The translations under genes were made by a program, and so were the position numbers. Under the pieces are notes generated by a model, which saw only the letters and a list, made by a program, of their open reading frames with translations, was not told where the DNA came from and ran no database searches. 38,992 nucleotides of DNA from Marinifilum sp. (lineage in GTDB: Bacteria; UBA9089; CG2-30-40-21), in the NCBI GenBank assembly GCA_020717845.1, contig DYDG01000014.1, positions 1-38,992 on the forward strand, given 5' to 3'. Below, in pieces: positions 1-38,992 of the stretch (position 1 is the stretch's first letter; each line of letters starts with the position of its first letter).

Positions 1-28
1 TTAGTGCCTTTGTGCCTTTGTGGCAAAC
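1..28. repeat. short tandem intergenic repeat (GTGCCTTT units)
   Basis: Two copies of the octamer GTGCCTTT followed by GTGGC lie at the window edge, upstream of the fliP promoter. A related stretch (CGTGCCTTCGTG) lies at about 18838. This is one of many short-unit intergenic repeats in the window; no coding potential was seen. Confidence 0.6.
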
Positions 29-84
29 CTTTAGCTAATTTCAGACACCACCGAAAATTCTATCTATGATTATCGAAAAAATAC

Positions 85-113
85 TTGACAAAACAAGAGT
101 TATCTGATATTAT
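85..113 (+). promoter_or_regulatory. sigma-70-type promoter for fliP
   Basis: A perfect -35 TTGACA at 85-90 is followed, after 17 nt, by TATTAT at 108-113 (5 of 6 to TATAAT). Transcription would start near 120, giving a leader of about 35 nt before the fliP start at 154. Because the -35 box lies on the TTG at 85, the longer in-frame extension of fliP from that TTG is unlikely to be translated. Confidence 0.7.
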
Positions 114-153
114 CTTATATGTAAAAATGTTTATAAAACTCTGGGAGGGGTTA

Positions 154-918
154 ATGATGCGCAAATGGTCTATTTGCTTACTATTTGTGATAGCTATTGT
201 TGTGTTCTCGTCTGCATGGTGTTTCAGCCAACCTGTGCCTATCGGTATTCCTAAGATCAATATCGGTGTGACAGAGGCAAAAACGCCTCAGGATGTTGCC
301 CTCTCTCTTCAAATCATATTCCTTCTAACCATTCTGACCTTAGTTCCAAGCATTGTCATGATGACTACCTCATTTATTCGAGTAGTAATTGTCCTCTCAT
401 TCATTAAACAAGCCTTAGCTACCCAGCAGGCTCCCCCTCAACAGGTCGTTGTCGGACTTGCTTTATTTATCACCTTTTTTATCATGGCACCAACTATATC
501 AAAGATCAATGAAACTGCTTTTCAGCCATACCTTGCCGGCAAGACGAACTTTCCAGAAACACTGAAAAAAGCATCCCTGCCATTAAGAGAATTTATGTTT
601 AAGCAAACCAGAGAAAAGGATATTGCCTTATTTATTGACTTGAGTAAGATGCCAAGACCTACAACAAGGAAGGATGTGCCTACCTATGTTCTTATCCCTG
701 CCTTTATGATTAGTGAATTAACCTCTGCCTTCTGGATGGGGATATTATTGTTTATTCCGTTCTTGATGATAGATATGATTGTTGCCAGTGTTTTAATGTC
801 TATGGGCATGATCATGCTGCCACCAGTAATGATATCATTGCCCTTTAAGATACTTTTGTTTGTTATGGTTGACGGCTGGAATCTATTGATCCACTCATTA
901 GTGGCAAGCTTTCATTAG
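154..918 (+). CDS. fliP: flagellar type III export gate protein FliP
   Basis: FliP is a core inner-membrane subunit of the flagellar type III export gate, assembling with FliQ and FliR. The product is about 254 residues, a normal FliP length. It has an N-terminal signal-like hydrophobic segment (about residues 5-25), a membrane region containing the family stretch TSFIRVVIVLSF, a periplasmic middle part (about residues 130-185) and two C-terminal membrane segments including the typical FLMIDMIVASVLMSMGM run. The start was placed at ATG 154 (or the adjacent ATG 157) because GGAGGGG at 144-150 precedes it and a promoter covers the upstream extension. fliO is not seen upstream in this window. 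fliQ, its usual neighbour, lies 685 bp downstream, separated by a four-helix-bundle gene. Confidence 0.95.
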   Translation: MMRKWSICLLFVIAIVVFSSAWCFSQPVPIGIPKINIGVTEAKTPQDVALSLQIIFLLTILTLVPSIVMMTTSFIRVVIVLSFIKQALATQQAPPQQVVVGLALFITFFIMAPTISKINETAFQPYLAGKTNFPETLKKASLPLREFMFKQTREKDIALFIDLSKMPRPTTRKDVPTYVLIPAFMISELTSAFWMGILLFIPFLMIDMIVASVLMSMGMIMLPPVMISLPFKILLFVMVDGWNLLIHSLVASFH

Positions 919-1113
919 CTGCAAAAGGTGGCGATGAATGTAGTTGTAAATCAAGGAGGTGAAACATAAACAAATGTTATTTAAGTTGTTGTATTGTGGT
1001 AAGGAATGTTGCAACTTAGGTAATAGCCGAAAATTAGGTATGGGTTGAGATGAATTTATGTAAAGACAAAAGATTTAATCCATACTGAAAATTAAAACTG
1101 GGAGGTAAGGGCT

Positions 1114-1497
1114 ATGCCGAGGTACGAAGAATTAGGGGTCTGGCAGTTAGCGAACAGACTGGTTATGGAAGTGTGCCGTATCGTTAACCGTTACCCGAGA
1201 GAGGTTGCCTACAATGACCTTGCAATTCAAATGAAGGGTTCATCTATGGGTGTGGCTATGAATATCGCTGAGGGACATTCTCAGCAAACCCTTCATGAAT
1301 ATAGGCATTTTCTTGAAGCAGCCATGAACTCTTTGAGGGATACTACCTTCTTTTTGAAGGTAAGTTATCAGAATCAGCTTGTAAATGAGGTTACCTATAA
1401 CTTTCTCTCTAAAGAGTATGAACGGGTGAGATGTCTGGTGCTGTCTATTCTTAAATGGATTGAAAGCGAGACAACCAGCAGTGTAGCGGCAGCATAA
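1114..1497 (+). CDS. four-helix-bundle protein (S23/23S rRNA intervening-sequence family)
   Basis: The 127-residue product matches the four-helix-bundle (S23, TIGR02436-type) family. Visible features are the N-terminal LGVWQLANRLVMEVCRIV helix, the central SSMGVAMNIAEGHS segment (canonical form: S..S...NIAEG) and the later LRDTTFFLKVS segment. The family is best known from ORFs inside intervening sequences of 23S rRNA genes, but free-standing copies are common in environmental genomes and their function is unknown. Start ATG 1114 follows GGGAGGT. It sits between fliP and fliQ, an order not expected for the export-gate operon, with about 195 bp of non-coding DNA upstream and a perfect 11-bp inverted repeat downstream (1520-1554). 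I infer insertion of a small selfish or RNA-associated element. A role in flagella is not supported. Confidence 0.85.
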   Translation: MPRYEELGVWQLANRLVMEVCRIVNRYPREVAYNDLAIQMKGSSMGVAMNIAEGHSQQTLHEYRHFLEAAMNSLRDTTFFLKVSYQNQLVNEVTYNFLSKEYERVRCLVLSILKWIESETTSSVAAA

Positions 1498-1519
1498 ATG
1501 AATGCGGTGCGAATTAAGT

Positions 1520-1554
1520 CATTGCAGGGGTGTGGAATATATGCCCCTGCAATG
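1520..1554. repeat. perfect 11-bp inverted repeat after four-helix-bundle gene
   Basis: CATTGCAGGGG at 1520-1530 is the exact reverse complement of CCCCTGCAATG at 1544-1554, with a 13-nt loop. No T-run follows, so it is not an intrinsic terminator. It lies between the inserted four-helix-bundle gene and fliQ and could be a boundary of the inserted segment or an mRNA processing site. Confidence 0.75.
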
Positions 1555-1603
1555 AATGCAAGAGGAAAGTGAAAAACACGAGAAATATAATCGAGGTAGC
1601 AAT

Positions 1604-1873
1604 ATGACTGAAGGGTTTGCTGTAAAATTAGTTCAAGAGGCATTATTCTATACCATCCTGATCTCAGCACCTATGTTGGCTGTGAGTATGCTTGTGGGTC
1701 TGGTAATCAGTATCCTCCAGACTGCAACATCTATTCAGGAACAGACACTGTCGTTTGTTCCTAAAATAATTGTTACCCTGTTGTCAATAATTGTCTTTGG
1801 AACATGGATGTTGAAAACATTGATGGAATATACTGTGCGATTGATAAATACATTTCCGGATTTGATTGGATAG
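1604..1873 (+). CDS. fliQ: flagellar type III export gate protein FliQ
   Basis: FliQ is a small two-helix inner-membrane subunit of the export gate. The product is 89 residues, the standard length. It has two hydrophobic hairpin helices (about 15-38 and 50-72) around the conserved ATSIQEQTLSFVPK loop. The start is ATG 1604 (MTEGFAVKL), preceded by GAGGT with a 6-nt spacer; the longer in-frame version from 1556 adds a charged, non-conserved leader and is rejected. The stop codon lies at the left border of a TATAGGAC-type repeat that fills the gap to fliR. Confidence 0.93.
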   Translation: MTEGFAVKLVQEALFYTILISAPMLAVSMLVGLVISILQTATSIQEQTLSFVPKIIVTLLSIIVFGTWMLKTLMEYTVRLINTFPDLIG

Positions 1874-1935
1874 GTCCTATAGGACTTATAGGTCCTATAT
1901 GACCTATGAGACATATAGGACATATAGGACATATA
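1873..1935. repeat. TATAGGAC-family 9-nt tandem/palindromic repeat, fliQ-fliR
   Basis: The gap contains AGGTCCTATAGGAC palindromes followed by tandem CATATAGGA units ending directly at the fliR ATG. The same family occurs at 28137-28174 (aroA/aroC) and 36467-36509 (ilvC/ilvN). The last AGGA (1926-1929 or so) is positioned as a Shine-Dalgarno for fliR, about 6 nt before ATG 1936. Confidence 0.85.
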
Positions 1936-2733
1936 ATGGAGCATTACGACTTATTTGTTACCCAGTTTCAAAGATTTTTATTGGTTTTCACAAGGATTTC
2001 AGGGATATTTGTCATAAGTCCGTTTTTTGGCAGTTTGAGTGTTCCGCTCCGAATAAAGGCAGGGCTTGCCATTTTTATGGCTCTGTTGATATTCCCTGTG
2101 GTAAATCATACGCTCCCCTCTTTGTCAGGAAACCTTGGTGAGTATTATAGCCTTGTTATCTCTGAGGTAGCAATAGGCATAATTATTGGTTTTCTTTGCA
2201 CTATTATTATGTCTACCTTTCAGGTTTCAGGCGAATTCTACAGTGTGCAGATGGGGTTTGGGTTTGTAAATACAGTAGACCCGCTTTCTCAGGTAGAGCA
2301 GCCAATTATTGGACAGCTTATTGGGCTTTTTGCCATGCTTATCTTTCTGGTTGCAGGCGGGCATCATCTTATGATTACAGCTGTTTTTAACAGCTACGAG
2401 GCAGTCCCGATATTTTCCTTAAAAGCCTCTAACCTTGTCTTTGATAAAACTGTTGCTGTTTTTTGCGGTATGTTTCTTACAGCTCTGAAAATAGCCATGC
2501 CAATCATGGGTGTATTATTTTTGGTAACTCTGGCTATGGGATTGATGGCAAAGGTTGCACCAGCAATGAATATCATGGCTTTGGGCTGGGCAATAACCAT
2601 TGTTGCGGGTATTGTCATCTTGATTCTGGTTATGCCATTGATTGGTCAGGCAGCACAAAATATATTTACCTGCGTGTTTTCTGATATAGATGAATTATTA
2701 CATGCTATGGGACGGGTGGTAGGGGCTGGATAG
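1936..2733 (+). CDS. fliR: flagellar type III export gate protein FliR
   Basis: FliR is a polytopic inner-membrane subunit of the export gate. From ATG 1936 the product is 265 residues, typical for FliR, beginning MEHYDLFVTQFQRF. It shows the family features RISGIFVISPFFG near the N-terminus, VPLRIKAGLA, and GFGFVNTVDPLSQVEQP in the middle, with about six hydrophobic segments. A longer in-frame start at 1906 would add ten residues encoded by the upstream repeat (RHIGHIGHI) and is rejected. The Shine-Dalgarno AGGA with a 6-nt spacer is itself part of the repeat. The gene follows fliQ and precedes flhB, the usual export-gate order. Confidence 0.93.
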   Translation: MEHYDLFVTQFQRFLLVFTRISGIFVISPFFGSLSVPLRIKAGLAIFMALLIFPVVNHTLPSLSGNLGEYYSLVISEVAIGIIIGFLCTIIMSTFQVSGEFYSVQMGFGFVNTVDPLSQVEQPIIGQLIGLFAMLIFLVAGGHHLMITAVFNSYEAVPIFSLKASNLVFDKTVAVFCGMFLTALKIAMPIMGVLFLVTLAMGLMAKVAPAMNIMALGWAITIVAGIVILILVMPLIGQAAQNIFTCVFSDIDELLHAMGRVVGAG

Positions 2734-2736
2734 AAG

Positions 2737-2767
2737 TTAGGGGTTAAGGGATAGGGGTTAGGGGTTT
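2737..2767. repeat. TAGGGGT short tandem repeat, fliR-flhB
   Basis: Repeats of TTAGGGGTTAAGGGATAGGGGTTAGGGG type begin just after the fliR stop. The same TAGGGGTTAG motif recurs within the larger repeat at 6362-6450. Confidence 0.65.
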
Positions 2768-2819
2768 CCCACCTTGATTGATCTTGTGTTATGCGAATGT
2801 TTGCAAGGGGTAACGAATT

Positions 2820-4052
2820 ATGATAGAACCATATGATACCCAATATATTGTTGGATATGCTGGCTATAATCCTGTATTGGCAGCAGACCTTCTGCCAGTA
2901 GGATTTTTGCGGCTTGAGCAGGAAGAATATAGGGAAAAGCAGATAGAGCCAGTAGATACCTTTGATATTCAGCTATTTGCTCGAGCTGAGGATGAAGGCC
3001 GAACCGAAGAGCCAACACCGAGAAAACGGCAGCAGGCAAGGGAAAGGGGACAGGTTGTCAAGAGCATGGAGATTACCTCTGCTTCCATTACCCTGATAAC
3101 CTGTCTGGCTATGTCCATGCTTGGATATTATATGTTTACCAGGATGATGAGCTATTTCATGTACTGTTTCTCTCATCTGCATGAGGTGGAATTTTCAGCA
3201 GATAATATCATGGGTCTTTTTCCGGTAATTATTATAGCATTTTTCAAGGTTACCCTGCCGATTATGTTGATTGCCGTATTGGTTGCTGTTATTGTTGAGG
3301 CATTACAGGTAGGGATATATTTTGCCCCAAAGGCACTAAGGTTTGATTTTGCGAGGATGAGGTTTAATGTTTCCAAGATATGGCAAAAACTTATCCCATC
3401 CAAAATTTCCATGATTGAATATGGCAAAACATTTTTTAAGATTGGGGTAATTATCTGGATCTCGTATGCTGTCATCCATAAGGAGTTTTTTTCTCTTCTC
3501 AATCTTCTGGATGTAGAATTGATAGTAGGGTTTACACTTATCGCCAGTTTGACGTTTAAGATAATTATTTATACCGCTATATTTTTATTGATCATAAGCC
3601 TGTTTGATTATCTTCATCAGAGGCATGAGTATAAACAGAGCTTGATGATGACCAAGCATGAATTAAAGGATGAGTGGAAACAGTTAGAGGGTGACCCTTC
3701 GGTTAAAAGAAGGATAAGACAAAGGCAGCGAGAAACAGCGGCAAAAAGGATGATAGCTGAGATTGCCACAGCAAATGTGGTTATTACCAACCCAACCCAT
3801 CTGGCTGTGGCTATAAAGTATGACGCTGCTTATATGGTTGCACCAACGGTGGTGGCCAAGGGTAAGGGATTGATGGCACAACGCATTATTGACATAGCTA
3901 AGGAAAATGATGTGCCTGTTATAGAGAATAAACCACTGGCTGCGGCATTGTTTGAAATAGTAGATATTGGGTCAGAGATTGCACCACAATTCTATCAAAC
4001 AGTAGCAGAGATACTGGCATTTGTCTATCGATTAAAACAAAAGGCAGCGTGA
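2820..4052 (+). CDS. flhB: flagellar export switch protein FlhB with N-terminal extension
   Basis: FlhB is the membrane protein that switches export specificity through autocleavage of its cytoplasmic domain. The NPTH cleavage motif is at residues 324-327, followed by the AIKYD, AKG and KPLA segments of the autocleaving domain. The family's charged RTEEPTPRKRQQARERGQV segment precedes four membrane helices. This segment starts only at about residue 61: the conserved DIQLFA start-like region is preceded by about 48 extra residues rich in aromatic and acidic residues. No start codon with a good ribosome site lies nearer the conserved region, and AAGGGGT lies 8 nt before ATG 2820, so the extension is probably real. 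At 410 residues it is longer than the usual 350-380. It sits between fliR and flhA as expected. Confidence 0.92.
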   Translation: MIEPYDTQYIVGYAGYNPVLAADLLPVGFLRLEQEEYREKQIEPVDTFDIQLFARAEDEGRTEEPTPRKRQQARERGQVVKSMEITSASITLITCLAMSMLGYYMFTRMMSYFMYCFSHLHEVEFSADNIMGLFPVIIIAFFKVTLPIMLIAVLVAVIVEALQVGIYFAPKALRFDFARMRFNVSKIWQKLIPSKISMIEYGKTFFKIGVIIWISYAVIHKEFFSLLNLLDVELIVGFTLIASLTFKIIIYTAIFLLIISLFDYLHQRHEYKQSLMMTKHELKDEWKQLEGDPSVKRRIRQRQRETAAKRMIAEIATANVVITNPTHLAVAIKYDAAYMVAPTVVAKGKGLMAQRIIDIAKENDVPVIENKPLAAALFEIVDIGSEIAPQFYQTVAEILAFVYRLKQKAA

Positions 4053-4065
4053 GAATGCGGGAATG

Positions 4066-4148
4066 GTAATCGGTGATTGGTAATCGGTAATCAGGAAAAG
4101 CGGTATTCTAATATTACCTGATCACTGATCACCGATCACCGATTACCT
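4066..4148. repeat. long inverted repeat of 7-nt GGTAATC units, flhB-flhA
   Basis: The left arm, 4066-4096, is made of GGTAATC/GGTGATT units. The right arm, 4118-4148, is its reverse complement at 27 of 31 positions, with a 21-nt loop. Two of the four differences would be G-U wobbles in RNA. No T-run follows. It is likely a strong mRNA hairpin between flhB and flhA. Confidence 0.85.
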
Positions 4149-6340: not shown

Positions 6341-6361
6341 ATTCCCCCTTATCAAAGGGGG

Positions 6362-6483
6362 TAGGGGTTAGTCCTCCTTAGTAAAGGGGGTTAGGGGTTA
6401 GTCCCCCTTAGTAAAGGGGGTAGGGGTTAGTCCCCCTTAGTAAAGGGGGTTAGGGGGTTGTTTCTCCCCTTGAAAAGGGGAGG
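6362..6483. repeat. three 29-30-bp tandem repeats plus degenerate fourth
   Basis: The units at 6362-6391, 6392-6420 and 6421-6450 share TAGGGGTTAGTCC.CCTTAGTAAAGGGGG and are followed by a degenerate copy to about 6483. Each unit contains its own CCCCTTAGTAAAGGGG hairpin. Units abut with no spacers, so this is not a CRISPR array. It lies immediately before the flhF ribosome site. Confidence 0.85.
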
Positions 6484-7759: not shown

Positions 7760-7764
7760 GAAAG

Positions 7765-7807
7765 GTCAGGTATCAGCTCCTTCTTTAGCTGACTGCTGAT
7801 ACCTGAC
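7765..7807. repeat. perfect 13-bp inverted repeat, flhF-flhG
   Basis: GTCAGGTATCAGC at 7765-7777 is the exact reverse complement of GCTGATACCTGAC at 7795-7807, with a 17-nt loop that itself contains AGCTGACTG-like partial copies. No T-run follows on the plus strand; it is more likely a repeat element or RNA stability hairpin than a terminator. Confidence 0.8.
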
Positions 7808-7829
7808 AGCTTTCTTCAAGGGGTGTAAT

Positions 7830-8733: not shown

Positions 8734-8761
8734 TTGCGAATTACGAAAAATGTGGTATAAT
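8734..8761 (+). promoter_or_regulatory. extended -10 sigma-70-type promoter before the fliA group
   Basis: TTGCGA at 8734-8739 is followed after 16 nt by a perfect TATAAT at 8756-8761, and the TGG just before it makes an extended -10 element. It would drive the two-TM gene, fliA and possibly apbE, allowing sigma-28 to be made separately from the export-gate operon. Confidence 0.65.
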
Positions 8762-8770
8762 ATGAAGATA

Positions 8771-8819
8771 GGCTGAAGGCTGAAGGTTTTTAGTGATAAA
8801 TGATGATTGATCTTCAGCC
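8771..8819. repeat. GGCTGAAG-family repeat
   Basis: Tandem GGCTGAAGGCTGAAGG at 8771-8786 is matched by the inverse TCTTCAGCC at 8811-8819. The same family forms a much longer palindrome at 37003-37075 between ilvB and ilvN. Confidence 0.75.
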
Positions 8820-11288: not shown

Positions 11289-11327
11289 ATCTAATTATCA
11301 ATAGAAAAATGGGGGGGAGTCTTGCCA

Positions 11328-14300
11328 ATGAAAAACCTCGTTCTGAGATCCTTCTTATCCTGCCTGTTAATTACCATGACAACTATGTCTTATGCTGGGA
11401 ATTATCTCCCTATCCTTACATGGCCAGGCACTGGCACATATAAGTCTGATGGACTTGATCCAGAGGTCGGTGTCCAGGGGACTACCTTTACCTTTCGGGT
11501 GAAGTATATTGATTATGATAATGAGGCACCGGCAGGGGATGTGATGATGGTGCTTAATATTCCCAATGAAGTACCTATGGGATTGGTTATGTCACCTGAA
11601 GGCTCAAATCAAGACTACCGAAAAGGTGTGATCTACCGCTACGCTACATCAACCCTTACGCCTTTATCATATAACTATTCCTTTGTAATAAAAATACCCG
11701 GTAATCCACCAGATGATCCATATGATATGATAATTAACACTGCAGAACGCTCTGGCACGAATGGAGCTACTTTTAACCTACAGGAAGCAGATGAGTTGTC
11801 TCCAATAATTACTCATCAAGGACCGAAAGTAGTATCTGACCAGATACTTGGCTGGCTTGGAAGCAAAAATTACGAGAGTGATGGACTTGATCCAGAAAAT
11901 GGTGGGACAAATACGGTATTTACATATAAGGTAAAATGCTTTGGAACACCTTCAAATGGATATCCAAAGCTGGTTATTAATTCACTTAATAATGATATGG
12001 TTCCCATCATTATGAAATCTGAGGCAGGTGGCAATTCTCTTAGTGGCACGGTATATTACGCTACATCTACCTTGCAAGTTGATACTATCTATACATATCG
12101 GTTTCAATTAACAGACGTTAATGAGACTCCTCCTACAGAGTCTCCACGTATTTATCCCACTCCCACTACATCTGACTCTGCTTTTTTTGACTGGACCGGT
12201 GGTTTGGGATACGAAAATGATGGGATTGATCCTGATATTGCCAGTTATGGCTCAACCTTTACCTGTAAAATCAAGTATGTGGACATAACAGGAATTCCAC
12301 CAGTGAATTCTCCAATAATACGTATTGATGGAAGAGACTATCCAATGGATTATGCATCTGGCACATCTATGACTGGCATTATTTATCAATATCAATATCC
12401 GACAACAGATTTATCATCGCTTGGTACGATTTCTTGTTCAATTCGTTATGTTGCAGAAAGCACTTATTTTCAAAAGGACTTTGATTTCTGGACAGCAAAC
12501 ATCCCTCCCCTTCTAACATGGACAGGTGAACCGGGTTATAAAGATGATGGTGTTCAGCCAAATGTTGGGACTGCAGGCACTGTATTTACCTTTCGCATAA
12601 AATATACAGATCCTGAGGGGAACTCTCCATGTGAGATATGGTTAAAGGGTGATAAGGAGATAGCCATGGAACCAAAAGGTTATAATGGAATATATGAATG
12701 TACGGGAACATTCAGCCTTGGCCAACACTACTATTGGTTTTCTGCTTGTGAGGAAGTTAGTGGTATGACTGTAATAAAAGTCAGTGCTGGTGGGAGTAAA
12801 ACAGTAGTCAATAAATCTGATCTTAGTCTACCCATACAACTTGCCTCCTTCATCGTATCCATTGGCAGCCTCACCTCAGTTGCCATCACTGGCACAAATG
12901 CTGTTGGGATAGACGAGACAGCAACCTTTACGGCTCAAGCCTTTGATGAGCTTGGTGAGGAGATTGAGGATAGCTATGTTACTTATTCCTGGTATATTAT
13001 TGAAGGGGTAGGTTTGCTTACCAACAAAAATAGTAAAACCGTTACCTTTACAGCAGGCACAAGCACAGGGACAATAACCTTAGAGGTTACTGCCCAACCT
13101 GCAAATGCAGATGGTGTCCTTCAAGGTGATGAGGTTACTGCCACAAAAACCATCACCATCAAGCCTGGCAAGCCTACAGCACTTTTTTTTTTAGAAACCG
13201 GAACAAATACCCTCACAGCTAACGTGCCTATCAAAGGCTCAAGATGCTTCTCAATTTTAGGGAAGGATAGATATGAAAATCCTACCCTGATTGGAAATTG
13301 TACCTGGTATGTTGAGGGAGCGATTGGGACGATTTCTTCCTCAAGTGGCAATAAGGCTACATTTACTGCAGGAGCTAATACTGGAACAGGTGCAGTAGTA
13401 GTTAGCACCATGGGTAACGACGGAACACTGACTGCAACCGTGAGCATTACGATTACTCATGGTGATTTTGATCATTTCGATATCCTGGTTGAAAACCCAC
13501 CAATTAGTGTTGATGGGAGCATAACCATCACCCTTTATCCAAAGGATGTAAGCGGCAATACTGTTGATTATAGCGGGACATCTTCGCCAATATTAAGGAT
13601 AATGGTTGACACTGATTCTGCAACTCTCGGCTCATGTGTTATTAATAGTCCTATAGAATTCCCCTGGCCACCAGGGTTAAAAGATAATCTTGGAACCGGC
13701 ACTATCTATGCCTCAATCAATGGAATCAACAAAGGCACAAGCAGCCCATTCCCGATTGTCTCGGGCTCGCCACACCATTTCAATATCAGCTCACCTGTAA
13801 CCAATAGTGCTGTCCAGGCTGGCGATGCAAGTATTCCAGTTACAGCTCAATTGCAGGACAGGTATAACAACCCATCCGCTCTGGGGACATCTGCCTGCGT
13901 GGTATTTCAATCTGACAGTTTTGGCACATTCACCATTGATAGCACAGGCATCACCTCACCTGGCACAATCACCGTTCAAACCAATGCCAGCGGACAGATA
14001 GTCGGCAGTTACCAGCCAAATTTTTCATCCGGCAGTAAGGCAACACTTGTCAGTATGTTTCTGGCAGCAGATGATACGGTAATGGGCACAAGCGGGGCAA
14101 TCATCCTCACCATCCCGGCTGCTCTGGCTACAATAGATGTTGTCCTGCCAGCAACATTTACCGCAGGTGTCCCGGCGACAATAAGTGTTGCTGTAAGGGA
14201 TAGCTACAATAATCCAGCCACAGCTACCCTTAGCTTCAGCAGCTCTCTGGGCACAATGACACCAAATGGATGTATAATTACTGGCAGTATAACCAATGGA

Positions 14301-17300
14301 TTTTCATGGCAGACTAATGGCACATGGACAGGGACAACCTCATTTACTAAGGCACAAATGCAGGCAACGTTGACTATCACCGCCCAAAATGGCAAGACAG
14401 CTACAACAACGTTTGCTGTTTTACCAGCAGAGCCACACAACCTGCAGGCTACAGGGACAACAACCTACAACGGTTCATCTGGGGATGAATGGACACTGGG
14501 TGTCAGGTTAAAGGATATGTATGGGAATCCAATCGAAGGGAGAAACATATTCTGGGAGTTTATCTCAAATCCATCCAATGCCATGCTTGCAAATACTGTT
14601 TCCACAACCAATCAAGCAGGAGAGGCAGGTGTTATTCTTACATTAGGCACCAAAACAGGGACATGCACCATCAAGGTATATCCTGAAGGGTTTTCTGGTA
14701 TCTCAGCGACATTTACAGCAACAACTATTGCCGGCTCCCCTACCATTTCATCTGGCAGCTATCCCTCAACAGCAACTGTTGACAACAAGATAGTCCTTGA
14801 GGCAGTACTCATGGATAATTCAGGCAATCCATTCCAGGGCAGGAATATTACGTGGCAGGTTTTGCAGCCATTACATGGAGCATTCATTAGCCCATCAACA
14901 AGCACCACCAATAGTTCAGGCATGGCTACAACAAGCCTTACCCTTGGGACAAAGACTGGTGTGTATATTGTAACAGCAAGATATGGATCATTAACTGCTA
15001 CATTTACCATTACCGCCATGCCTGATAACACGGCTACAATGACCACAACCATTACCCCGGGAACAGTGGCTGTGGTTAATAGCCAGATGATATTAGGTGT
15101 GGAGTTGACTGACCAATGGGGCAACCCTGCAGCTACAACAACTGTCAACTGGCAGCCACAGGGACTGGCAGCTACCACTACTCAAACCATAAATGGCAGC
15201 ACAACCCTTGAATTCATCCTTGGCACAAAAACTGGCGTGTATCTTGTTACCGCAACCTCTGGAGCATTAACCGCTACATTTACCATTACCGCTCTACCCG
15301 ATAAGCTTGGTGTAATAACCACAGCTATTACACCAGGGACAGTAGCTGTGGTAAGCAGCCAGCTGGTGTTGATGGCTGGATTGTATGACCAATGGGGTAA
15401 CCCTGCAGCTACAACAACCGTCAATTGGCAGCCACAGGGCATGGCAGCGACAACTACTCAAACCATAAATGGAATCGCAACCCTTGCATTTACCCTTGGG
15501 ACAAAGACGGGTGTGTCCATTATTACTTCCACCTCTGGAACATTAACCGCTACCTTCAGCATCACAGCCATAGCAGGCACGAGTGCCTTATCCCAGAATT
15601 TTACGCATGCCTCACGAACGGTGGGGAATAGTATAACCCTTGAGGTGTGCTTAAAAGATGAGTTTGGCAATCCAGGCTCAGGCACGGTATCATGGAGTCT
15701 GGTTGGATCATTGACTCAAGCAGCATCACTTACTGCTGCATCTACCCCTATTGATCAGACAGGCTCAGCAAGTGTTGTTTTAACCATTGGGACAAAAACA
15801 GGAGACTATGTTGTCCGGGCACAAGTTGATGGCTGGACAGCTACATGGACCATTACAGCTGAACCGGGTGTAGTAGGGACAATGTTGACCGGATACGTGC
15901 CCTCAACTGCTGCAGTTAATACTACCCTGCCACTAACCATTGGGTTATATGATTCATATGGCAACCCTGTCTCAGCAACTGTTGATTGGCCATCTACCAG
16001 CACTCAAACCATAAACGGAACCGCAACCCTTATGTTTACCCTTGGCACTCGTACCGGTATATATGAGATAACCGCCTCACATGATGGCAGGATTGCCACC
16101 TTTACCATTACAGCTACACCCGGCACACCAACCATATCCCAAAATCTTAGCCATGGCTATGGAACTGTGGGTGAGAATGTAACACTTGAGGTATACTTGA
16201 GGGACGAGTTTAGTAATCCATGCCCTGGCACAATAACATGGAATTTGATTGAGCCATTGCCTGCAGCAGCATCGCTTTCTGCTACATCTACCCCTATTGA
16301 CCTTCAAACAGGCTCAGCAAGCGTTGTCTTAACTATTGGCACCAAAACAGGAGACTATGTTGTGAGGGCACAGGTGGATGGTTATACTGCTACATGGACC
16401 ATTAGTGCACTATCAGGGAATCTGGCTACAGATACGGTCTCTGGCACATCTACCGGTGCAGCCGTAGTAAATGGGACAATGACATTTACCCTCAACATCT
16501 ATGATGAATATGGCAACCCTATTCAGAGCGGAAACGTTGATTGGACCGTAATCCGTGGAACCATAACCACAGCAACAAAAACAACCTCTATCTCAAATGG
16601 TCTAACTGAATATTCCTACAAGATAGACACGATTGCCGGGACATATACAATAAGTGCTAAGTTTGGGGCTATGCTGTTCAAGCCGTTCAATATCTGTGTG
16701 AGTCCTGGCAGCCCAACACTTACCCCAAGCGTTTCTGCAATATCCTGCCTGCCGGGTGGAAATATCATTCTGGAGGTATCTTCCAGGGATGAGTTTGGCA
16801 ATCCATGCCCTGGCACAGTAGAATGGAGTCTGATTGAGCCATCGTCTGCGACTGTGTCGTTTTCTGCTACATCTACTACTATTGATCAGACAGGCTTAGG
16901 GACAACTACATTTACCCCTGGAACAATGAGCGGGAATTATATCGTTAAGGCTGCAATTGCTGGACAGGAGGGACAGAAGAGGCAGGAGGCTACCTGGACT
17001 ATCACGGTTAGAACAATGGATTCCTCTAAGGAGTTGCTTATCTATCCCAACCCACTAAGGGTTCAGGAATGGAATTATAGCAAGTATCCTGATGGCCCAT
17101 GGGTAAGGTTTGGCAGTTTTAATAGCCATGTAACGATAAGGATATATGACATCTCAGGCAATTTGATAAGGATTATGGAGAATGTCCAACCAGCTCCGGA
17201 TGGATTTGTGAAATGGGACATGAAAAATGAAGGAAGCCCCTCTGACAAAGATGGGGTTGAGGTAAACTCAGGCGTCTATCTGTGTATTACCATATGCAAT

Positions 17301-17339
17301 GGAGAAAAAAGGATTGAACGGTTTGCTGTGATAAGGTAA
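11328..17339 (+). CDS. giant secreted Ig-repeat surface protein with FlgD/T9SS-like C-terminus
   Basis: The 2,003-residue product is an apparent extracellular adhesin or surface-layer protein. It has a signal peptide (cleavage expected after SYA, about residue 24). Four N-terminal repeats of roughly 110-150 residues follow, each opening with W-G..GY..DG..P and T.FTF..KY.D (about residues 30, 180, 290, 400). About five irregular Ig-like modules come next, then nine more regular Big_1-like modules (about 1040-1900) carrying GNP and LGTKTG.Y.VTA signatures. The last 100 residues (IYPNP, IRIYDISGNLIR, GVYLC) resemble the FlgD/type 9 secretion C-terminal fold. ATG 11328 follows GGGGGGGAG. It has its own promoter, and a PorV-like gene follows 20 bp later, suggesting outer-membrane delivery by that partner. 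The ligand is unknown; near-identical DNA repeats may change module number. Confidence 0.85.
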   Translation: MKNLVLRSFLSCLLITMTTMSYAGNYLPILTWPGTGTYKSDGLDPEVGVQGTTFTFRVKYIDYDNEAPAGDVMMVLNIPNEVPMGLVMSPEGSNQDYRKGVIYRYATSTLTPLSYNYSFVIKIPGNPPDDPYDMIINTAERSGTNGATFNLQEADELSPIITHQGPKVVSDQILGWLGSKNYESDGLDPENGGTNTVFTYKVKCFGTPSNGYPKLVINSLNNDMVPIIMKSEAGGNSLSGTVYYATSTLQVDTIYTYRFQLTDVNETPPTESPRIYPTPTTSDSAFFDWTGGLGYENDGIDPDIASYGSTFTCKIKYVDITGIPPVNSPIIRIDGRDYPMDYASGTSMTGIIYQYQYPTTDLSSLGTISCSIRYVAESTYFQKDFDFWTANIPPLLTWTGEPGYKDDGVQPNVGTAGTVFTFRIKYTDPEGNSPCEIWLKGDKEIAMEPKGYNGIYECTGTFSLGQHYYWFSACEEVSGMTVIKVSAGGSKTVVNKSDLSLPIQLASFIVSIGSLTSVAITGTNAVGIDETATFTAQAFDELGEEIEDSYVTYSWYIIEGVGLLTNKNSKTVTFTAGTSTGTITLEVTAQPANADGVLQGDEVTATKTITIKPGKPTALFFLETGTNTLTANVPIKGSRCFSILGKDRYENPTLIGNCTWYVEGAIGTISSSSGNKATFTAGANTGTGAVVVSTMGNDGTLTATVSITITHGDFDHFDILVENPPISVDGSITITLYPKDVSGNTVDYSGTSSPILRIMVDTDSATLGSCVINSPIEFPWPPGLKDNLGTGTIYASINGINKGTSSPFPIVSGSPHHFNISSPVTNSAVQAGDASIPVTAQLQDRYNNPSALGTSACVVFQSDSFGTFTIDSTGITSPGTITVQTNASGQIVGSYQPNFSSGSKATLVSMFLAADDTVMGTSGAIILTIPAALATIDVVLPATFTAGVPATISVAVRDSYNNPATATLSFSSSLGTMTPNGCIITGSITNGFSWQTNGTWTGTTSFTKAQMQATLTITAQNGKTATTTFAVLPAEPHNLQATGTTTYNGSSGDEWTLGVRLKDMYGNPIEGRNIFWEFISNPSNAMLANTVSTTNQAGEAGVILTLGTKTGTCTIKVYPEGFSGISATFTATTIAGSPTISSGSYPSTATVDNKIVLEAVLMDNSGNPFQGRNITWQVLQPLHGAFISPSTSTTNSSGMATTSLTLGTKTGVYIVTARYGSLTATFTITAMPDNTATMTTTITPGTVAVVNSQMILGVELTDQWGNPAATTTVNWQPQGLAATTTQTINGSTTLEFILGTKTGVYLVTATSGALTATFTITALPDKLGVITTAITPGTVAVVSSQLVLMAGLYDQWGNPAATTTVNWQPQGMAATTTQTINGIATLAFTLGTKTGVSIITSTSGTLTATFSITAIAGTSALSQNFTHASRTVGNSITLEVCLKDEFGNPGSGTVSWSLVGSLTQAASLTAASTPIDQTGSASVVLTIGTKTGDYVVRAQVDGWTATWTITAEPGVVGTMLTGYVPSTAAVNTTLPLTIGLYDSYGNPVSATVDWPSTSTQTINGTATLMFTLGTRTGIYEITASHDGRIATFTITATPGTPTISQNLSHGYGTVGENVTLEVYLRDEFSNPCPGTITWNLIEPLPAAASLSATSTPIDLQTGSASVVLTIGTKTGDYVVRAQVDGYTATWTISALSGNLATDTVSGTSTGAAVVNGTMTFTLNIYDEYGNPIQSGNVDWTVIRGTITTATKTTSISNGLTEYSYKIDTIAGTYTISAKFGAMLFKPFNICVSPGSPTLTPSVSAISCLPGGNIILEVSSRDEFGNPCPGTVEWSLIEPSSATVSFSATSTTIDQTGLGTTTFTPGTMSGNYIVKAAIAGQEGQKRQEATWTITVRTMDSSKELLIYPNPLRVQEWNYSKYPDGPWVRFGSFNSHVTIRIYDISGNLIRIMENVQPAPDGFVKWDMKNEGSPSDKDGVEVNSGVYLCITICNGEKRIERFAVIR
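15060..15560 (+). repeat. near-identical Ig-module coding repeats inside giant gene
   Basis: Two successive modules of about 240 bp share long matching DNA stretches (both encode GNPAATTTVNWQPQG and TTQTING). A second related pair encodes GTKTGDYVVRAQVDG at about 15790 and 16335. These are recent duplications within the reading frame and could expand or contract by recombination. Confidence 0.8.
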
Positions 17340-18761: not shown

Positions 18762-18850
18762 AGAACACGGATTTGGACGGATTGGACGAATATTCACGGA
18801 TTTTTTATCTGGAAATTATCTGTGTTCTGTTTTTCTTCGTGCCTTCGTGA
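18762..18850. repeat. ACGGATT/ GTGCCTTCGTG short repeats before flgM promoter
   Basis: ACACGGATTTGGACGGATTGGACGAA-like units and TCACGGATT are followed by CGTGCCTTCGTGAT, the latter related to the repeat at positions 1-28. No open frame is supported. This fills the left half of the gap between the PorV-like gene and the sigma-28 promoter. Confidence 0.6.
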
Positions 18851-26696: not shown

Positions 26697-26776
26697 AATT
26701 AAAAATTATGAATTATGAATTAAAAATTTAGGCAGATTCTAATCCTTTTAATTTTTAACCTTTAATTTTTAATTTC
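26697..26776. repeat. ATGAATT/ TTTAATTTTTAA AT-rich inverted repeat
   Basis: AATTAAAAATTATGAATTATG-like 7-nt units at 26697-26729 are followed by the inverse TTTTAATTTTTAACC and TTTAATTTTTAATTT to 26775. The element fills the 108-bp gap between aroC and the receiver gene. Confidence 0.75.
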
Positions 26777-28116: not shown

Positions 28117-28136
28117 AACACAACCTCCTCTGGTTT

Positions 28137-28174
28137 ATATGACCTATAGGTCATATAGGACTTATATGACCTAT
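28137..28174. repeat. TATAGGAC-family palindrome, aroA-aroC
   Basis: A perfect 20-bp palindrome at 28137-28156 (ATATGACCTA/TAGGTCATAT) continues with AGGACTTATATGACCTAT, overlapping the end of aroA. It encodes the last residues GHISPI of AroA. Same family as 1873-1935 and 36467-36509. Confidence 0.85.
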
Positions 28175-29464: not shown

Positions 29465-29475
29465 TGTGTTTCCCC

Positions 29476-29517
29476 TCTGTGTCCTCTGTGGTTTTCCTTT
29501 GTGTCCTCTGTGGTTAA
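29476..29517. repeat. CTCTGTGTCCTCTGTGG tandem repeat
   Basis: CTCTGTGTCCTCTGTGG and TTTGTGTCCTCTGTGG are two copies in tandem. On the minus strand they place a purine-rich AGAGG.GA stretch in front of aroA. A related inverse copy lies at about 19275-19290. Confidence 0.75.
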
Positions 29518-29524
29518 TCTTTCT

Positions 29525-30487: not shown

Positions 30488-30533
30488 GCCATAAAAGCAT
30501 GGGACGCACCTAAAGGTACTCACGACTACTATC

Positions 30534-30675
30534 TCATGACATTTGAATTTATGGGCTACCCTTACAGGCAACCACAAGGGTTGCAGCTACTCATGACATT
30601 TGAATTTATGGGCTTACCCTTACAGGCAACCACAAGGGTTGCAGCTACATTGTAGCTGCAACCCTTGTGGTTGCC
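30534..30675. repeat. 57/58-bp tandem duplication ending in a 25-bp palindrome
   Basis: TCATGACATTTGAATTTATG...GTTGCAGCTAC is present twice, at 30534-30590 and 30591-30648. The end of copy two (30625-30649) is an exact reverse complement of 30651-30675 with a single central base. Smaller GCAACC/GGTTGC hairpins are nested inside. It fills most of the gap between hslV and the EEP gene. Confidence 0.9.
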
Positions 30676-31240: not shown

Positions 31241-31267
31241 TGTAATTACTCCTTAACTGGTAGGTAG

Positions 31268-31352
31268 CACAAGCATCCCTGCTTGTGGTCGTTGAGCGAA
31301 ATCGCCCTTCGACAAGCTCAGGGAACGAACACGGTTGTTGAGCCTGTCGAAA
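31268..31352. repeat. repeat cluster right of hslV
   Basis: This cluster contains the CACAAGCATCCCTGCTTGTG palindrome (31268-31287; near-copy at 6316-6335), a CTTCGACAAGCTCAGGGAACGAAC segment, and the inverse copy of the hslV-left repeat at 31336-31352. It occupies nearly the whole gap between glyA and hslV. Confidence 0.8.
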
Positions 31353-31360
31353 CATAATAC

Positions 31361-32763: not shown

Positions 32764-32766
32764 TAG

Positions 32767-32943
32767 TTAACCCTCCTTTTCTAAAGAAAATCCAACCAAT
32801 GCTGTAATTAAAGTTGCCAGACTTCCTAACATTAGTACCAGTAACTTGGGGACATCTTCAAAGCCTAAAATACTGCTCAAGACTACTCCAGCAAAAATAA
32901 GTTTTGAGACATCTAATAAATAATTCCCTACTTTCTGCCTCAT
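32767..32943 (-). CDS. 58-residue two-TM small protein (DUF6722-like appearance)
   Basis: The product from ATG 32943 has an N-terminal amphipathic segment (MRQKVGNYLLDVSKLIFAGVV) and two membrane helices (about 12-30 and 33-51) ending in a charged tail. It resembles small two-TM proteins of the DUF6722 type, judged from memory only. AAGGAGA lies 8 nt upstream of this ATG; a longer version from TTG 32991 is less likely. It lies between the aminotransferase and the 37-residue gene in one direction. Confidence 0.65.
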   Translation of the reverse strand: MRQKVGNYLLDVSKLIFAGVVLSSILGFEDVPKLLVLMLGSLATLITALVGFSLEKEG

Positions 32944-33020
32944 TTGACTGCTCTCCTTATTACCCATGGCAAGTGCATCTAAATCCCACAATTGCCTCTA
33001 TCAATAAATTTTTTGTGAGG

Positions 33021-35310: not shown

Positions 35311-35326
35311 CTTAACCCTCCTTTTC

Positions 35327-35378
35327 CGTGATCATTTAACATAACCGTCTCCTTTTACGGTCATGTTAAATGATCACG
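35327..35378 (-). promoter_or_regulatory. 22-bp-arm dyad upstream of lrp, candidate operator
   Basis: CGTGATCATTTAACATAACCGT at 35327-35348 (first 20 bases shown by position) matches the inverse of 35357-35378 at 21 of 22 positions, with an 8-nt centre. The arms contain GTGATCATTTAACAT. No T-run follows on the minus strand, so it is not a terminator. Lrp autoregulation is a plausible function; it could also be one of the intergenic repeats. Confidence 0.6.
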
Positions 35379-35385
35379 CACCACG

Positions 35386-35427
35386 AATAAAAACAGAAGG
35401 GGCAAGTTCAGCACCTGCCCCTTCTGT
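35386..35427 (-). terminator. intrinsic terminator of ilvBNC
   Basis: On the minus strand ACAGAAGGGGCA pairs exactly with TGCCCCTTCTGT (12-bp stem, 11-nt loop) and is followed by TTTTTATT. It lies 14 bp after the ilvC stop codon, in the correct position and direction. Confidence 0.85.
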
Positions 35428-35440
35428 CTCTTCCATTATC

Positions 35441-36442
35441 TTAGCGTTTCTCTTCCTTTAACCAGCCCATCATATCCCTCAAATCTTTCCCAACATCCTC
35501 TATCAAATGTTCAGCATCATTTCTCATAAGGGCATTAAGGACTGGCCGATTTGCCTGATTTTCAAGTATCCATTCCTTAGCAAACTCACCGGTCTGGATA
35601 TCTGCCAGAATTTCCTGCATAGTTTCCCTTGTTTCATCATTGATAATCCATCTGCCACGCGTAACATCACCATACTTGGCTGTATCGCTTATTGCCTGTC
35701 TCATGCCAGTGATACCTTTCTCATAGACAAGGTCTACGATCAACTTCAACTCATGGCAGCACTCAAAATAAGCTATCTCAGGCTGATAACCTGCATCTAC
35801 CAATGTGTCAAAACCTGCTCTAATCAATTCTGTAACGCCGCCACACAAGACAACCTGCTCACCAAAGAGATCGGTCTCTGTTTCCTCTTCAAAGGTTGTT
35901 TCAATAATACCAGCTCTGGTACCGCCAACCCCTTTGCCATATGCCAGGGCAAGCTCCAGGGCATTACCGGATGCATCCTGATAGACAGCCACAACGCATG
36001 GCACACCGCCACCCTCAGTATAAACACGTCTGACAAGTTTACCAGGCCCCTTAGGAGCAATCATCACCACATCAACATCAGGAGGGGGAACAATCTGACC
36101 AAAGTGGATATTGAACCCATGTGAAAAACCAAGCACCTTGCCAGCCTTCAAATTTGGCTTTATGGCTGACTCATAGACCTTTTGTTGAGTCTGATCCGGC
36201 ACCAGCATCTGGATATAATCAGCCTGTGCAGCGGCCTCATTGGCAGAAACAGGGGTAAACCCATCCTGTTTTGCCATAGCATAATTTGGTGTGCCCTCCA
36301 GCTCTGCAATAATAACCTCACACCCGCTATCCCTCAGGTTTTGTGCCTGAGCATGTCCCTGAGCACCATAGCCAATAATGGCTATCTTTTTACCCTTCAA
36401 CAGGGTAATGTCCGCATCCCCTTCATAATAAATCGTTGCCAT
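35441..36442 (-). CDS. ilvC: ketol-acid reductoisomerase (class I), NADH-type cofactor loop
   Basis: IlvC isomerises and reduces 2-acetolactate or 2-aceto-2-hydroxybutyrate in valine and isoleucine synthesis. The 333-residue product is the short class I form. The Rossmann motif [17 protein letters not shown], metal-ligand segment [28 protein letters not shown] and SDTAKYGD are present. In the cofactor loop [11 protein letters not shown], an acidic Glu47 stands at the end of beta-strand 2 and the Arg and Ser residues normally contacting the NADPH 2'-phosphate are missing, which points to NADH use. It is the last gene of ilvB-ilvN-ilvC, followed by a terminator. Confidence 0.95.
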
Positions 36443-36466
36443 TCCTCGAACCTCCTTTATGATTTT

Positions 36467-36509
36467 ATAGGTCTTATGAGACCTATAAATAAGTCCTATA
36501 GGACTTATT
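36467..36509. repeat. TATAGGAC-family palindromes, ilvC-ilvN
   Basis: ATAGGTCT/AGACCTAT (36467-36486) is followed by a perfect 22-bp palindrome (AATAAGTCCTA/TAGGACTTATT, 36488-36509) that overlaps the ilvN stop codon. Same family as the fliQ-fliR and aroA-aroC gaps. Confidence 0.88.
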
Positions 36510-36987
36510 ATTTCTCTCCTCTCACCACAGCCACCTTGCCTGTGCGCATCAGCTCTTTGATGCCAAACGGCTTAAGCATCTCAATAATTCCATTTATCTT
36601 GCCTTCATCGCCGGTTATCTCCACAGTCATTGTTTTTTGAGAAACATCAATAACCTTTGCCCTGAATATCTCTATTATCTCCAGCACCCTTGTCCTCTGT
36701 CCCTCATCTGCGGCAACCTTAATCAAAACCAGTTCCCTTTCGACATGATCCTCTTTGGTTACATCCATAACCTTAATTACATCAATAAGTTTATTGAGCT
36801 GCTTCTCTATTTGTTCAATAATCCGGTTATCACCATTGGTAACAATAGTCATCCTTGATATTGTTGGGTCATCTGTTTCACCAACGCACAGGCTATCGAT
36901 ATTATACCCCCTGCCAGAGAATAGACCAGCTACCCGTGCCAGCACCCCGAACCTATTTTCAACCAATACAGATATTGTATGTCTCAT
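36508..36987 (-). CDS. ilvN: acetolactate synthase small (regulatory) subunit
   Basis: IlvN/IlvH binds the catalytic IlvB subunit and usually confers valine feedback inhibition. The 159-residue product has the N-terminal ACT domain ([31 protein letters not shown], then [10 protein letters not shown]) and the C-terminal domain ([25 protein letters not shown]), standard length. Two ATGs are adjacent; ATG 36987 is preferred because the AGGAGG would be only 1 nt from ATG 36990. It is second in the ilvB-N-C operon. Confidence 0.95.
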
Positions 36988-37002
36988 CATGCCTCCTGTT
37001 TT

Positions 37003-37075
37003 AGGTAGGAAGACTGAAGGCTGAAGGTCAATTCATTTGCTATCCTTCAGCCTTCAGTCTTCAGCCTTCCTACCT
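37003..37075. repeat. GGCTGAAG-family long palindrome, ilvN-ilvB
   Basis: The left arm (37003-37027, AGGTAGGAAGACTGAAGGCTGAAGG by position) matches the inverse of 37044-37075, which has one additional 7-nt unit. It fills the 93-bp gap and shares units with 8771-8819 after flhG. Confidence 0.88.
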
Positions 37076-37080
37076 GTTTT

Positions 37081-38763
37081 TCACGCCATTCCCTCAAGCA
37101 TCTGGGTTAATGATGCCCCAGCCGGCACCATTGGAAACACATTCTCCTCTTCTTCCACCCAAAAATCAAGCACCACCGGCTTTTTAGAGGCTATCGCCTT
37201 TTTCAGGGCAGGAACAACCTCTTCCTCTGTTTCCACTCGAATCCCTTCTGCACCATAAGCCTCAGCCACCTTGACAAAATCAGGCTGAACAGCCATAGAT
37301 GTATAGGAATATCTCTTATTAAAGAAAAGCTCCTGCCACTGCCTGACCATACCCAGGTTATGATTATTCAATATGGCCACATTGACTGGCAGATTATACT
37401 GGATAGCGGTTGCCAGCTCTTGAATATTCATCTGAAAGCTGCCATCACCGGCAATATCAAAAACAACCATATCAGGATTAGCCACCTGAGCACCAATTGC
37501 TGCCGGAAATCCATAACCCATTGTCCCCAATCCACCAGAGGACAGAAAACTCTTTGGGTAATCAAACTTATAATACTGGGCTGCCCACATCTGGTTCTGT
37601 CCAACCTCTGTAGTGATGATTGCATCCCCGCTTGTAACCTCATATATCTTTTCAATAACAAACTGTGGCTTTAATTTCCCACCTTTTTCACCTTTTTTAT
37701 ATCCAAGTGGACAATCCTTTTTCCATTGATTAATCTGCCCTATCCACTCATCAATCTTTGGTGCGATTGCCTCTTTATTTATCTGCTGCAAAATATGTCG
37801 AGCATCACCAACAATAGGGATATGAACCAGAACATTCTTACTGATAGATGACGGATCAATATCAATATGAATAATTGTGGCTGCTGGAGCAAACTCATCT
37901 ATCTTCCCGGTTACCCGGTCATCAAACCTGGCACCAATAGCAATAACCAGGTCAGCATGGCTAATGGCATAATTTGCATACTTTGTTCCATGCATACCCA
38001 GCATCCCAAGGAATAATGGATGCGTTCCCGGAAAACCACCAAGCCCCAACAGGGTAGATGTTACCGGAATACCGGTAATATCGACAAACTTTTGAAGCTC
38101 CTCAGCAGCGTTGGATGACATTATCCCGCCTCCGGAATAGATAACCGGTCTTTTACTGGAGGCAATAGCAGCAGTAGCCTTTTTTATCTGCATTGGATGT
38201 CCTTGGCAGGTTGGATTATAGCTTCGAATATCCACCTTTTGAGGATACTTAGGGTTAGTCATGACCGCTGTACTTATATCCTTTGGTATATCTATAAGCA
38301 CAGGACCCGGCCGTCCGGTATTAGCAATCCAGAAAGCCTCTTTAACCACCCTTGGAATATCAGCAACATTCTTGAGTAAGTAGCTATGTTTAACAATTGG
38401 TCGGGTAATACCAATGATATCTGCCTCCTGGAAGGCATCATTTCCAATCATTGTTGTTGGCACCTGTCCAGTAATAACAACCATTGGTATAGAATCCATA
38501 TAAGCTGTAGCAATACCTGTAATCAGGTTCGTTGCACCGGGTCCAGAGGTAGCCATACACACCCCAACCTTATTGGTAGAACGGCTATAGCCATCAGCCG
38601 CATGAGCTGCCCCCTGTTCGTGTCGAACAAGAATAAAGTTTATCTTAGCATCATACAAAACATCAAAAATGGGCAACAATACCCCTCCAGGATACCCAAA
38701 GATAGTATCTGCCCCTTCCCTTATCAAAGCCTCAATTAATATTTGTGCACCTGTATACTTCAA
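37081..38763 (-). CDS. ilvB: acetolactate synthase large (catalytic) subunit
   Basis: IlvB is a ThDP- and FAD-dependent enzyme that forms acetolactate or acetohydroxybutyrate, the first common step of branched-chain amino acid synthesis. The 560-residue product has the catalytic Glu in [35 protein letters not shown], the FAD/linker domain ([27 protein letters not shown]) and the ThDP motif [15 protein letters not shown] with [12 protein letters not shown]. The start is TTG 38763, 6 nt after GGAGGG; no nearby ATG fits. A consensus-like promoter is just upstream. First gene of the ilvB-N-C operon. Confidence 0.96.
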
Positions 38764-38800
38764 GAGAAACCCTCCTCATAATTTAGCTACATAGAGTATT

Positions 38801-38829
38801 ATGATACCATTTATTCAGCCTTGTGTCAA
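38801..38829 (-). promoter_or_regulatory. sigma-70-type promoter for ilvBNC
   Basis: On the minus strand a perfect TTGACA (38829-38824) is followed after 17 nt by TATCAT (38806-38801), 5 of 6 to TATAAT. The expected start leaves only about a 30-nt leader before ilvB, too short for a T-box or leader-peptide attenuator. Confidence 0.75.
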
Positions 38830-38877
38830 CTACAATTTTTATCATTTTGTAATAGGTCACCAGTGAACGGTAGAAAG

Positions 38878-38935
38878 AATTCACGCAAAGGTCGCAAAGG
38901 TCGCGCAAAGAAAAGTAAAGGGAAATCTTAATCTC
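38878..38935. repeat. CGCAAAGGT 9-nt tandem repeat upstream of ilv promoter
   Basis: CACGCAAAGGTCGCAAAGGT and CGCGCAAAG units lie at 38882-38910, followed by AATCTCTGCGAAATCTGC. The remainder of the window to 38992 shows no gene I can support. Confidence 0.65.
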
Positions 38936-38992
38936 TGCGAAATCTGCATGAAAGAATTGTGCTGCTTCAGACGGAATCATAATTTTCTTCCA

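Follow-up and report, generated by a model that had tools for sequence, protein, structure and literature searches.

The intergenic gaps of the window examined here (the whole 38,992-bp contig DYDG01000014.1, C16 in our numbering, from the 2.55-Mb, 181-contig metagenome assembly of an uncultured bacterium of Candidatus Desantisbacteria) probably house numerous families of foldback elements, which are small mobile hairpins that are not autonomous. The arms of these hairpins are tandem arrays of 7–9 bp units, and some of the families sit on IS66-type or IS1-like ends. The hairpins have dispersed to many sites as units, and they enter compact gene-gene junctions, in the space that separates a stop codon from the ribosome-binding site of the following gene. 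In relatives of the host, some lie between terminal inverted repeats (TIRs) of the IS66 or an IS1-like type, flanked by 8-bp target-site duplications (TSDs). The architecture, which a preliminary description had noticed in the window alone, is real. It is best described as resembling eukaryotic foldback transposons, and not as one local process that takes the place of transposons.

Excess of short tandem units and hairpins

The window was compared with three further genomes of its genus (G001, G002 and G003), in which the genes are collinear at roughly 70–94% DNA identity, so that gaps could be compared directly with gaps. Two genomes from another family of the order, G004 and G007, are mutually collinear at about 90–98% identity. 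Genome-wide statistics on hairpins and arrays refer to 970 kb of the host genome (about 38%), sampled by stretches, and the dispersed-repeat comparison of the window gaps was made against about 20% of it. Genes were taken as greedy longest open reading frame (ORF) calls, and gap limits are therefore approximate.

A strong hairpin was present in 60 of 269 host gaps and in none of the same 269 after shuffling. Intergenic tandem arrays were concentrated at periods of 7 bp (29 arrays), 8 bp (13) and 9 bp (33), with 8 arrays at 10 bp; against these 75 arrays at periods 7–9, only three in total occurred at periods 4–6 and three at 11–13. Their density exceeded that of coding arrays 12-fold at period 7 and 7-fold at period 9. 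Among hairpin arms of at least 16 bp, 14 of 42 were periodic (period 7, 8, 9 or 14), while about 3% of shuffled arms showed any period. The excess of 7–9 bp units and of their inverted arrangement is real and beyond doubt genome-wide, though not found in every gap.

Within the window, tests against dinucleotide shuffles gave a significant tandem array in 7 of 30 gaps (p ≤ 0.01), a hairpin in 8 (p ≤ 0.016) and one or the other in 13. Eighteen of the 24 gaps longer than 50 bp have sequence in common with other sites, but what several of them hold is a plain short palindrome that has no 7–9 nt units, for example 30526–30675 and 31264–31353. The preliminary description had placed tandem units, commonly with an inverse copy, in nearly every gap above about 50 bp. 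The excess stands and several families do have inverse arms, but both statements were too strong, because only 13 of 30 gaps pass the shuffle test and several hold plain palindromes; moreover, the CTCTGTGTC and CGCAAAGGT sites lack an inverse arm. The families that it named (GGTAATC, GCTGAAG, TATAGGAC, ATGAATT, CTCTGTGTC and CGCAAAGGT) were recovered within a few bases of where it had put them, and its view that sequences differ between families while the architecture of 7–9 bp units, inverted arms and loop is common agrees with the above-chance hairpin count. Comparison between species makes this architecture more striking than it had first appeared.

Dispersal and turnover

The same families recur at many loci. 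The host genome contains 30 pairs of TATAGGAC, and two genomes from a sister family of the order contain about 70 each. The AATTATG family of window 26697–26775 is expanded in G002 and G005; in G002 its outer arms are nearly constant (AATTAAAAATTATGAATTATGAATTAAAAATT) at many sites, with subfamilies that have common loops. Three consecutive AATTAYG units were found in 11 of 290 genomes, nine of them outside the phylum, and the reversed control pattern was nearly absent. In the host genome, a sister with the same loop was present for 7 of 7 comparable GGTAATC copies, 12 of 21 CACNNAG copies and 3 of 4 AATTATG copies. A first sample of the GAAGNCTG family, in which 0 of 28 loops matched, had hinted at a general rule by which arms are rebuilt around unrelated loops; the rule was dropped, since a bigger sample showed loops shared in most GGTAATC, CACNNAG and AATTATG copies, as well as one strict pair in GAAGNCTG.

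At L202 397–700 (G002:C229), two AATTATG hairpins with almost identical loops alternate with tRNA-like sequences and the flank GGCAGAT is repeated, which looks like the duplication of a segment made up of a tRNA and a hairpin.

Orthologous gaps showed that turnover is fast, with unrelated families at the same site in sister species. In 30 such gaps of the genus, an element was present in both species in 12 pairwise comparisons and was similar in none of them, and in 11 further comparisons a filled gap stood against one of 30 bp or less. The ilvB-ilvN junction illustrates both cases: it holds GAAGGCTG in the window, CACAGAGGCACTAAAGG (of CACAGAGG type) in G001, an AATTATG hairpin in G002 and no element in G003, where the stop codon overlaps the Shine-Dalgarno sequence. 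The orthologous site of the GGTAATC hairpin at 4065–4147 carries unrelated hairpins in G001 and G002, and downstream of a −10-like TATAAT box near 8756 the window has the GGCTGAAG hairpin where G001 has an unrelated GTTAGC hairpin. The exception to replacement is the 9-bp TATAGGAC family, found at the same place in at least two species at 1874, 28117 and 36443; these arrays fall below the element threshold of the orthologous-gap comparison. Between the sister species G005 and G006 (both genus g3), hairpin families expand independently: AATTATG triplets number 39 in the former and none in the latter, while TATAGGAC is high in both (68 and 74). A further site, near 33423 in L228/L250 compared with L251 (G004:C10, G007:C7), carries an IS66-framed element with TSD CTATTTTT in G004 and a TGGTAAC heptamer hairpin in G007.

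Transposon frames and target-site duplications

Two clean filled/empty pairs between G004 and G007 show single insertions directly. In G007, a 174-bp insertion with terminal repeats of its own (ATACTTCAGTGGGGTATA...) and the TSD TAT has a GGTTATC heptamer hairpin in its middle; in G004, a 422-bp insertion with GGTGGTGTCTGAA ends and the 8-bp TSD GAAAATTA encloses a GTTTATA heptamer hairpin. A search of all collected sequence for two end types gave 37 framed copies, of which 13 are flanked by exact 8-bp direct repeats against a permuted mean of 0.5, with none at lengths 4–7 or 9–12; where several right ends were possible the pair was picked by flank match, which slightly favours the observed count.

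The ends of the first frame follow GTAA[CG][CT][AG]TTCA[GC] and enclose at least nine different tandem-unit cargoes. They also bound IS66 transposase genes in G002, G001 and G004 (L272, L273 and L274; NCBIfam IS66 at 2.3e-84 in G002). Published IS66 inverted repeats begin with GTAAGCG and are accompanied by 8-bp repeats (PMC11946415). The second frame, with GGTGGTGTCTGAA ends, is likely IS1-like: it bounds a 1,270-bp element (L281) with two InsA/InsB-like ORFs and the 8-bp TSD CAATATTT. An intact copy of this frame lies in the host genome itself, at L049 17492–17694, with the 8-bp TSD GTTTTTTG.

Similar arms were seen in the first frame, in the second frame and in naked copies, which have neither frame nor TSD and form the majority in the genus of the window. 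Nested insertion was seen once, in L206, where the loop of an AATTATG hairpin contains an element of the first frame, with the duplication TAATTTTT; insertion solely into the loops of other hairpins was discarded, as in G007 the insertion occupies a hairpin arm. The unit ATTCACC of L235 is identical to the inner end of that element's own inverted repeat, GTAACTATTCACC. That array units generally derive from the end of their frame was likewise discarded, as the match is exact in L235 alone.

Where G004 and G007 align, the differences in array length amount to whole units: one TGGTAAC, one CTTCAGC, one TAGTYAG, 24 bp equal to three 8-mers and about five CCCGAGY units. Such changes fit replication slippage, so that the slippage half of the "slippage plus inversion" first put forward for these repeats is supported. 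As a possible reason for the unit length, PMC4692102 cites the suggestion that a heptamer matches the DNA segment in the polymerase active site.

Taken as a mechanism, framed copies would be moved in trans by the matching transposases, the 7–9 bp arrays would gain and lose units through replication slippage in the hairpin arms, and arm modules could be swapped between frames by nested insertion or, as a conjecture, by template switching.

Weighing of the explanations

Several observations weigh against mobile foldback elements as the explanation. No target duplication above chance was detected at lengths 3–10 for 84 naked hairpins of the window's genus; these may be moved by another enzyme or may be decayed or excised cargo. 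Although arms match in the GAAGNCTG family, a recognisable loop sister exists for just 2 of 13 copies, which plain copy-and-paste does not predict. The IS66 match in the host genome is only partial, and the family matches of L281 are weak (PF03400 at 5e-4 and NF033558 at 1.8e-4, both under curated cut-offs), for which reason the second frame is called likely rather than shown to be IS1-like. Finally, all genomes are fragmented metagenome assemblies in which contig breaks tend to fall at these repeats. Mobility signatures, which the preliminary description had proposed to seek family by family (as for repetitive extragenic palindromic, REP, sequences or miniature inverted-repeat transposable elements, MITEs), are present for the framed families of relatives and absent from the naked hairpins that dominate the genus.

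The preliminary description favoured one generating process over many transposons. If slippage and inversion built every array at its own site, the architecture shared by unrelated units, the sharp 7–9 bp period, the whole-unit differences between relatives, the unrelated loops of most GAAGNCTG copies and the identity of the L235 unit with the inner end of its own inverted repeat would all be accommodated. However, the same unit, often with the same loop, lies at many loci, sister species have empty sites, and framed copies carry target duplications; local construction, already weakened by these observations, is improbable, and the preference for it is not supported. It is rather unlikely that the naked hairpins belong to a REP-like class whose mobility depends on Y1 transposases, that is, REP-associated tyrosine transposases (RAYTs). 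These enzymes use hairpins in single-stranded DNA as substrates and produce no target duplication, in line with the 84 duplication-free hairpins; Y1_Tnp matches occur in 8 of 8 genomes of the order, and GTAG-ended palindromes exist in the host genome. Yet G005, with a weak and interrupted Y1 match, has its 68 TATAGGAC and 39 AATTATG matches, G018 has 9 TATAGGAC matches without any Y1 match, and the heptamer hairpins show no constant end tag. Repeat abundance does not follow the four Y1_Tnp matches of G000 either, and Y1 transposases as the driver of all families were rejected, since abundance does not track their presence.

Selection for RNA structure (terminators or mRNA stabilisers replaced only in sequence) would agree with the position of the hairpins, which follow a stop codon, precede the next start and lie for the most part in co-directional gaps. 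Sense-strand arm mismatches, however, include 22 G-T and 24 A-C pairs and hence show no G-U preference, so there is no sign of selection at the RNA level, and the same site may be without any element in a sister species; this explanation was rejected and is very doubtful. A template-directed enzyme, such as a reverse transcriptase or a telomerase-like protein, is recommended just by the narrow unit length and by telomere-like GGGGTTA units. Such an enzyme would require as many templates as there are unrelated units, of which each genome has dozens, and the target duplications and the copies of whole elements are signs of transposition, so that this explanation is hardly credible. Mobile foldback elements are thus retained as the probable explanation.

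Relation to known repeat systems

Like the eukaryotic foldback transposons FB, TU, Galileo and Tetris (PMC4079207), the hairpins consist of long inverted repeats of tandem units around a loop, are usually non-coding and are likely mobilised in trans. The eukaryotic structure is thought to have arisen several times independently from different transposon lineages (PMC4079207). The present elements differ in being bacterial, in having units of 7–9 bp instead of tens to hundreds, with a total of about 60–500 bp, and in having IS66 and IS1-like ends, with similar arm modules in unrelated frames. The TSD and the terminal domain outside the tandem part, by which foldback elements are recognised, are present in framed copies of relatives and in L049, and absent at the naked hairpins of the genus.

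With bacterial IS66- and IS1-type MITEs they share TIRs that match transposase-bearing elements in the same genomes, and the 8-bp TSD, but the interior is a swappable tandem-unit hairpin and not a deletion remnant of the insertion sequence. Heptameric tandem repeats have been described in cyanobacteria and Xanthomonas (PMC4692102) and TAACTGA repeats in Beggiatoaceae (PMC4679880). Those repeats are likewise intergenic, sometimes inverted, variable between close strains at the same gene pair and patchy over phyla, and their mechanism is not established; each report concerns one unit family, and in the portions consulted frames, TSDs and same-site replacement by unrelated families are not described.

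REP and REPIN sequences with their RAYTs (PMC3733652, PMC3116915) are also short, dispersed, intergenic palindromes without target duplication. The heptamer hairpins differ from them in lacking, by inspection, a GTAG/CGTC tag, in having tandem arrays as arms and in an abundance independent of Y1 presence. A GTAG end tag was found only on GTAGAGACGCAA-type palindromes; those of the form GTAGAGACGCAA...TTGCGTCTCTAC are dispersed in the host genome (L032 3048–3392, L039 6584–7106, L061 6212–6438, L076 1281–1414 and L077 13571–13625) and are candidates for a true REP family. In G004 and G007 (L228 5664–6025 and L247 1420–1878), a REP-like linker, ATTTTCATCC.CCTTTGTGTCCAC..GTGGACATG...CTCCTGAAAAT, separates successive tandem-unit hairpins in mosaics that resemble bacterial interspersed mosaic elements (BIMEs) or REPINs.

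A literature search found no description of bacterial foldback elements, which is weak evidence, as subscription journals were not covered. The preliminary description knew of no named class covering these families together; they are best viewed as a prokaryotic equivalent of foldback transposons.

Features of the window

The elements of the window are listed in Table 1. Its genes include a flagellar export operon (FliP, FliR, FlhB, FlhA, followed by an SRP54-type GTPase fitting FlhF), chorismate synthase, EPSP synthase, ilvC, ilvN and ilvB. An ORF of 2,005 codons at 11322–17339, with an internal 276-bp tandem repeat at 14940–15572, probably encodes a repetitive surface protein. The 240 bp at 32781–33020, called intergenic, have no counterpart gap in G001 and contain stretches with start codons; they likely hold a short gene overlooked by the ORF caller. 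In G003, the gap orthologous to window 919–1113 (L180, G003:C113), which two flagellar export genes flank, contains GTTCTCTCCCCGTATGGGAGCGTGGATTGAAATA once; this stretch resembles one lone type I-C-like CRISPR repeat.

Table 1. Repeat elements in the intergenic gaps of the window
Position	Element	Remarks
1–52	End of IS1-like-framed element, right side (TTTGTGCCTTTGTGG cargo, then GCTAATTTCAGACACCACC)	Truncated by contig start; 92% to L049 17487–17536; TIR at 40–52
1870–1936	TATAGGAC 9-bp tandem array with inverted units	Covers upstream ORF stop and start of fliR-type gene; same family at the site in G002
2736–2766	GTTAGGG 7-bp tandem array	3' of stop codon; GAAGTCA/GAATTCA hairpin in G001, GTGAAAA heptamers in G003
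4065–4147	GGTAATC heptamer foldback hairpin	31-bp arms (4065–4095 and 4117–4147), 21-nt loop
6272–6302	GAATGCG heptamers	Begin at stop codon of flhA-type gene
6343–6463	CCCCCTTAGTAAAGGGGGTTAGGGG palindrome array, dispersed family	TTAGTAG hairpin instead in G001
7764–7818	Hairpin insertion, about 60 bp	Directly after stop codon at 7760; site empty in G001 and G003
8770–8819	GGCTGAAG heptamer hairpin (GCTGAAG family, inverse arms)	In leader
18767–18803	ACGGATTTGG 9–10 bp tandem units	Not significant alone against shuffles; gap sequence recurs at other sites
26697–26775	AATTATG (ATGAATT) heptamer hairpin, inverse arm	Upstream of response-regulator gene
28136–28174	TATAGGAC 9-bp array	Extends into 3' end of EPSP synthase gene; AATTATG element instead in G002
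29474–29522	CCTCTGTG (CTCTGTGTC) 9-bp units, dispersed family	Inverse arm absent from gap
30526–30675	GGCAACCACAAGGGTTGCAGCTAC palindromic repeat family	Duplicated and inverted; no 7–9 nt units
31264–31353	TTCGACAAGCTCAGGG...TTGAGCCTGTCGAA palindromic family	No 7–9 nt units; 88% to L041 2696–2783
36453–36507	TATAGGAC 9-bp family hairpin	ilvC-ilvN gap; same family here in G001 and G003
37009–37069	GAAGGCTG heptamer hairpin (GCTGAAG family, inverse arms)	ilvN-ilvB gap
38884–38904	CGCAAAGGT 9-bp units	Just 2.3 copies; no inverse arm; p = 0.015

Significance

For decades, heptamer repeats have been described in bacterial gene gaps with no mechanism to account for them, and at least part of them is now placed within transposon frames with target duplications. 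Within one genus, unrelated families are shown to replace one another at the same junction. Since whole-unit differences separate close relatives, the puzzle of the 7–9 bp period is now open to testing. Tentatively, the foldback arms might be a distinct, phylum-crossing mobile cargo, made and re-made by hairpin slippage with a 7–9 nt step set by the replication machinery and picked up by unrelated transposon ends; the heptamer repeats of cyanobacteria and other phyla might then be what shows of a single foldback system in prokaryotes. With the elements described here, bacteria gain a counterpart of the eukaryotic foldback transposons.

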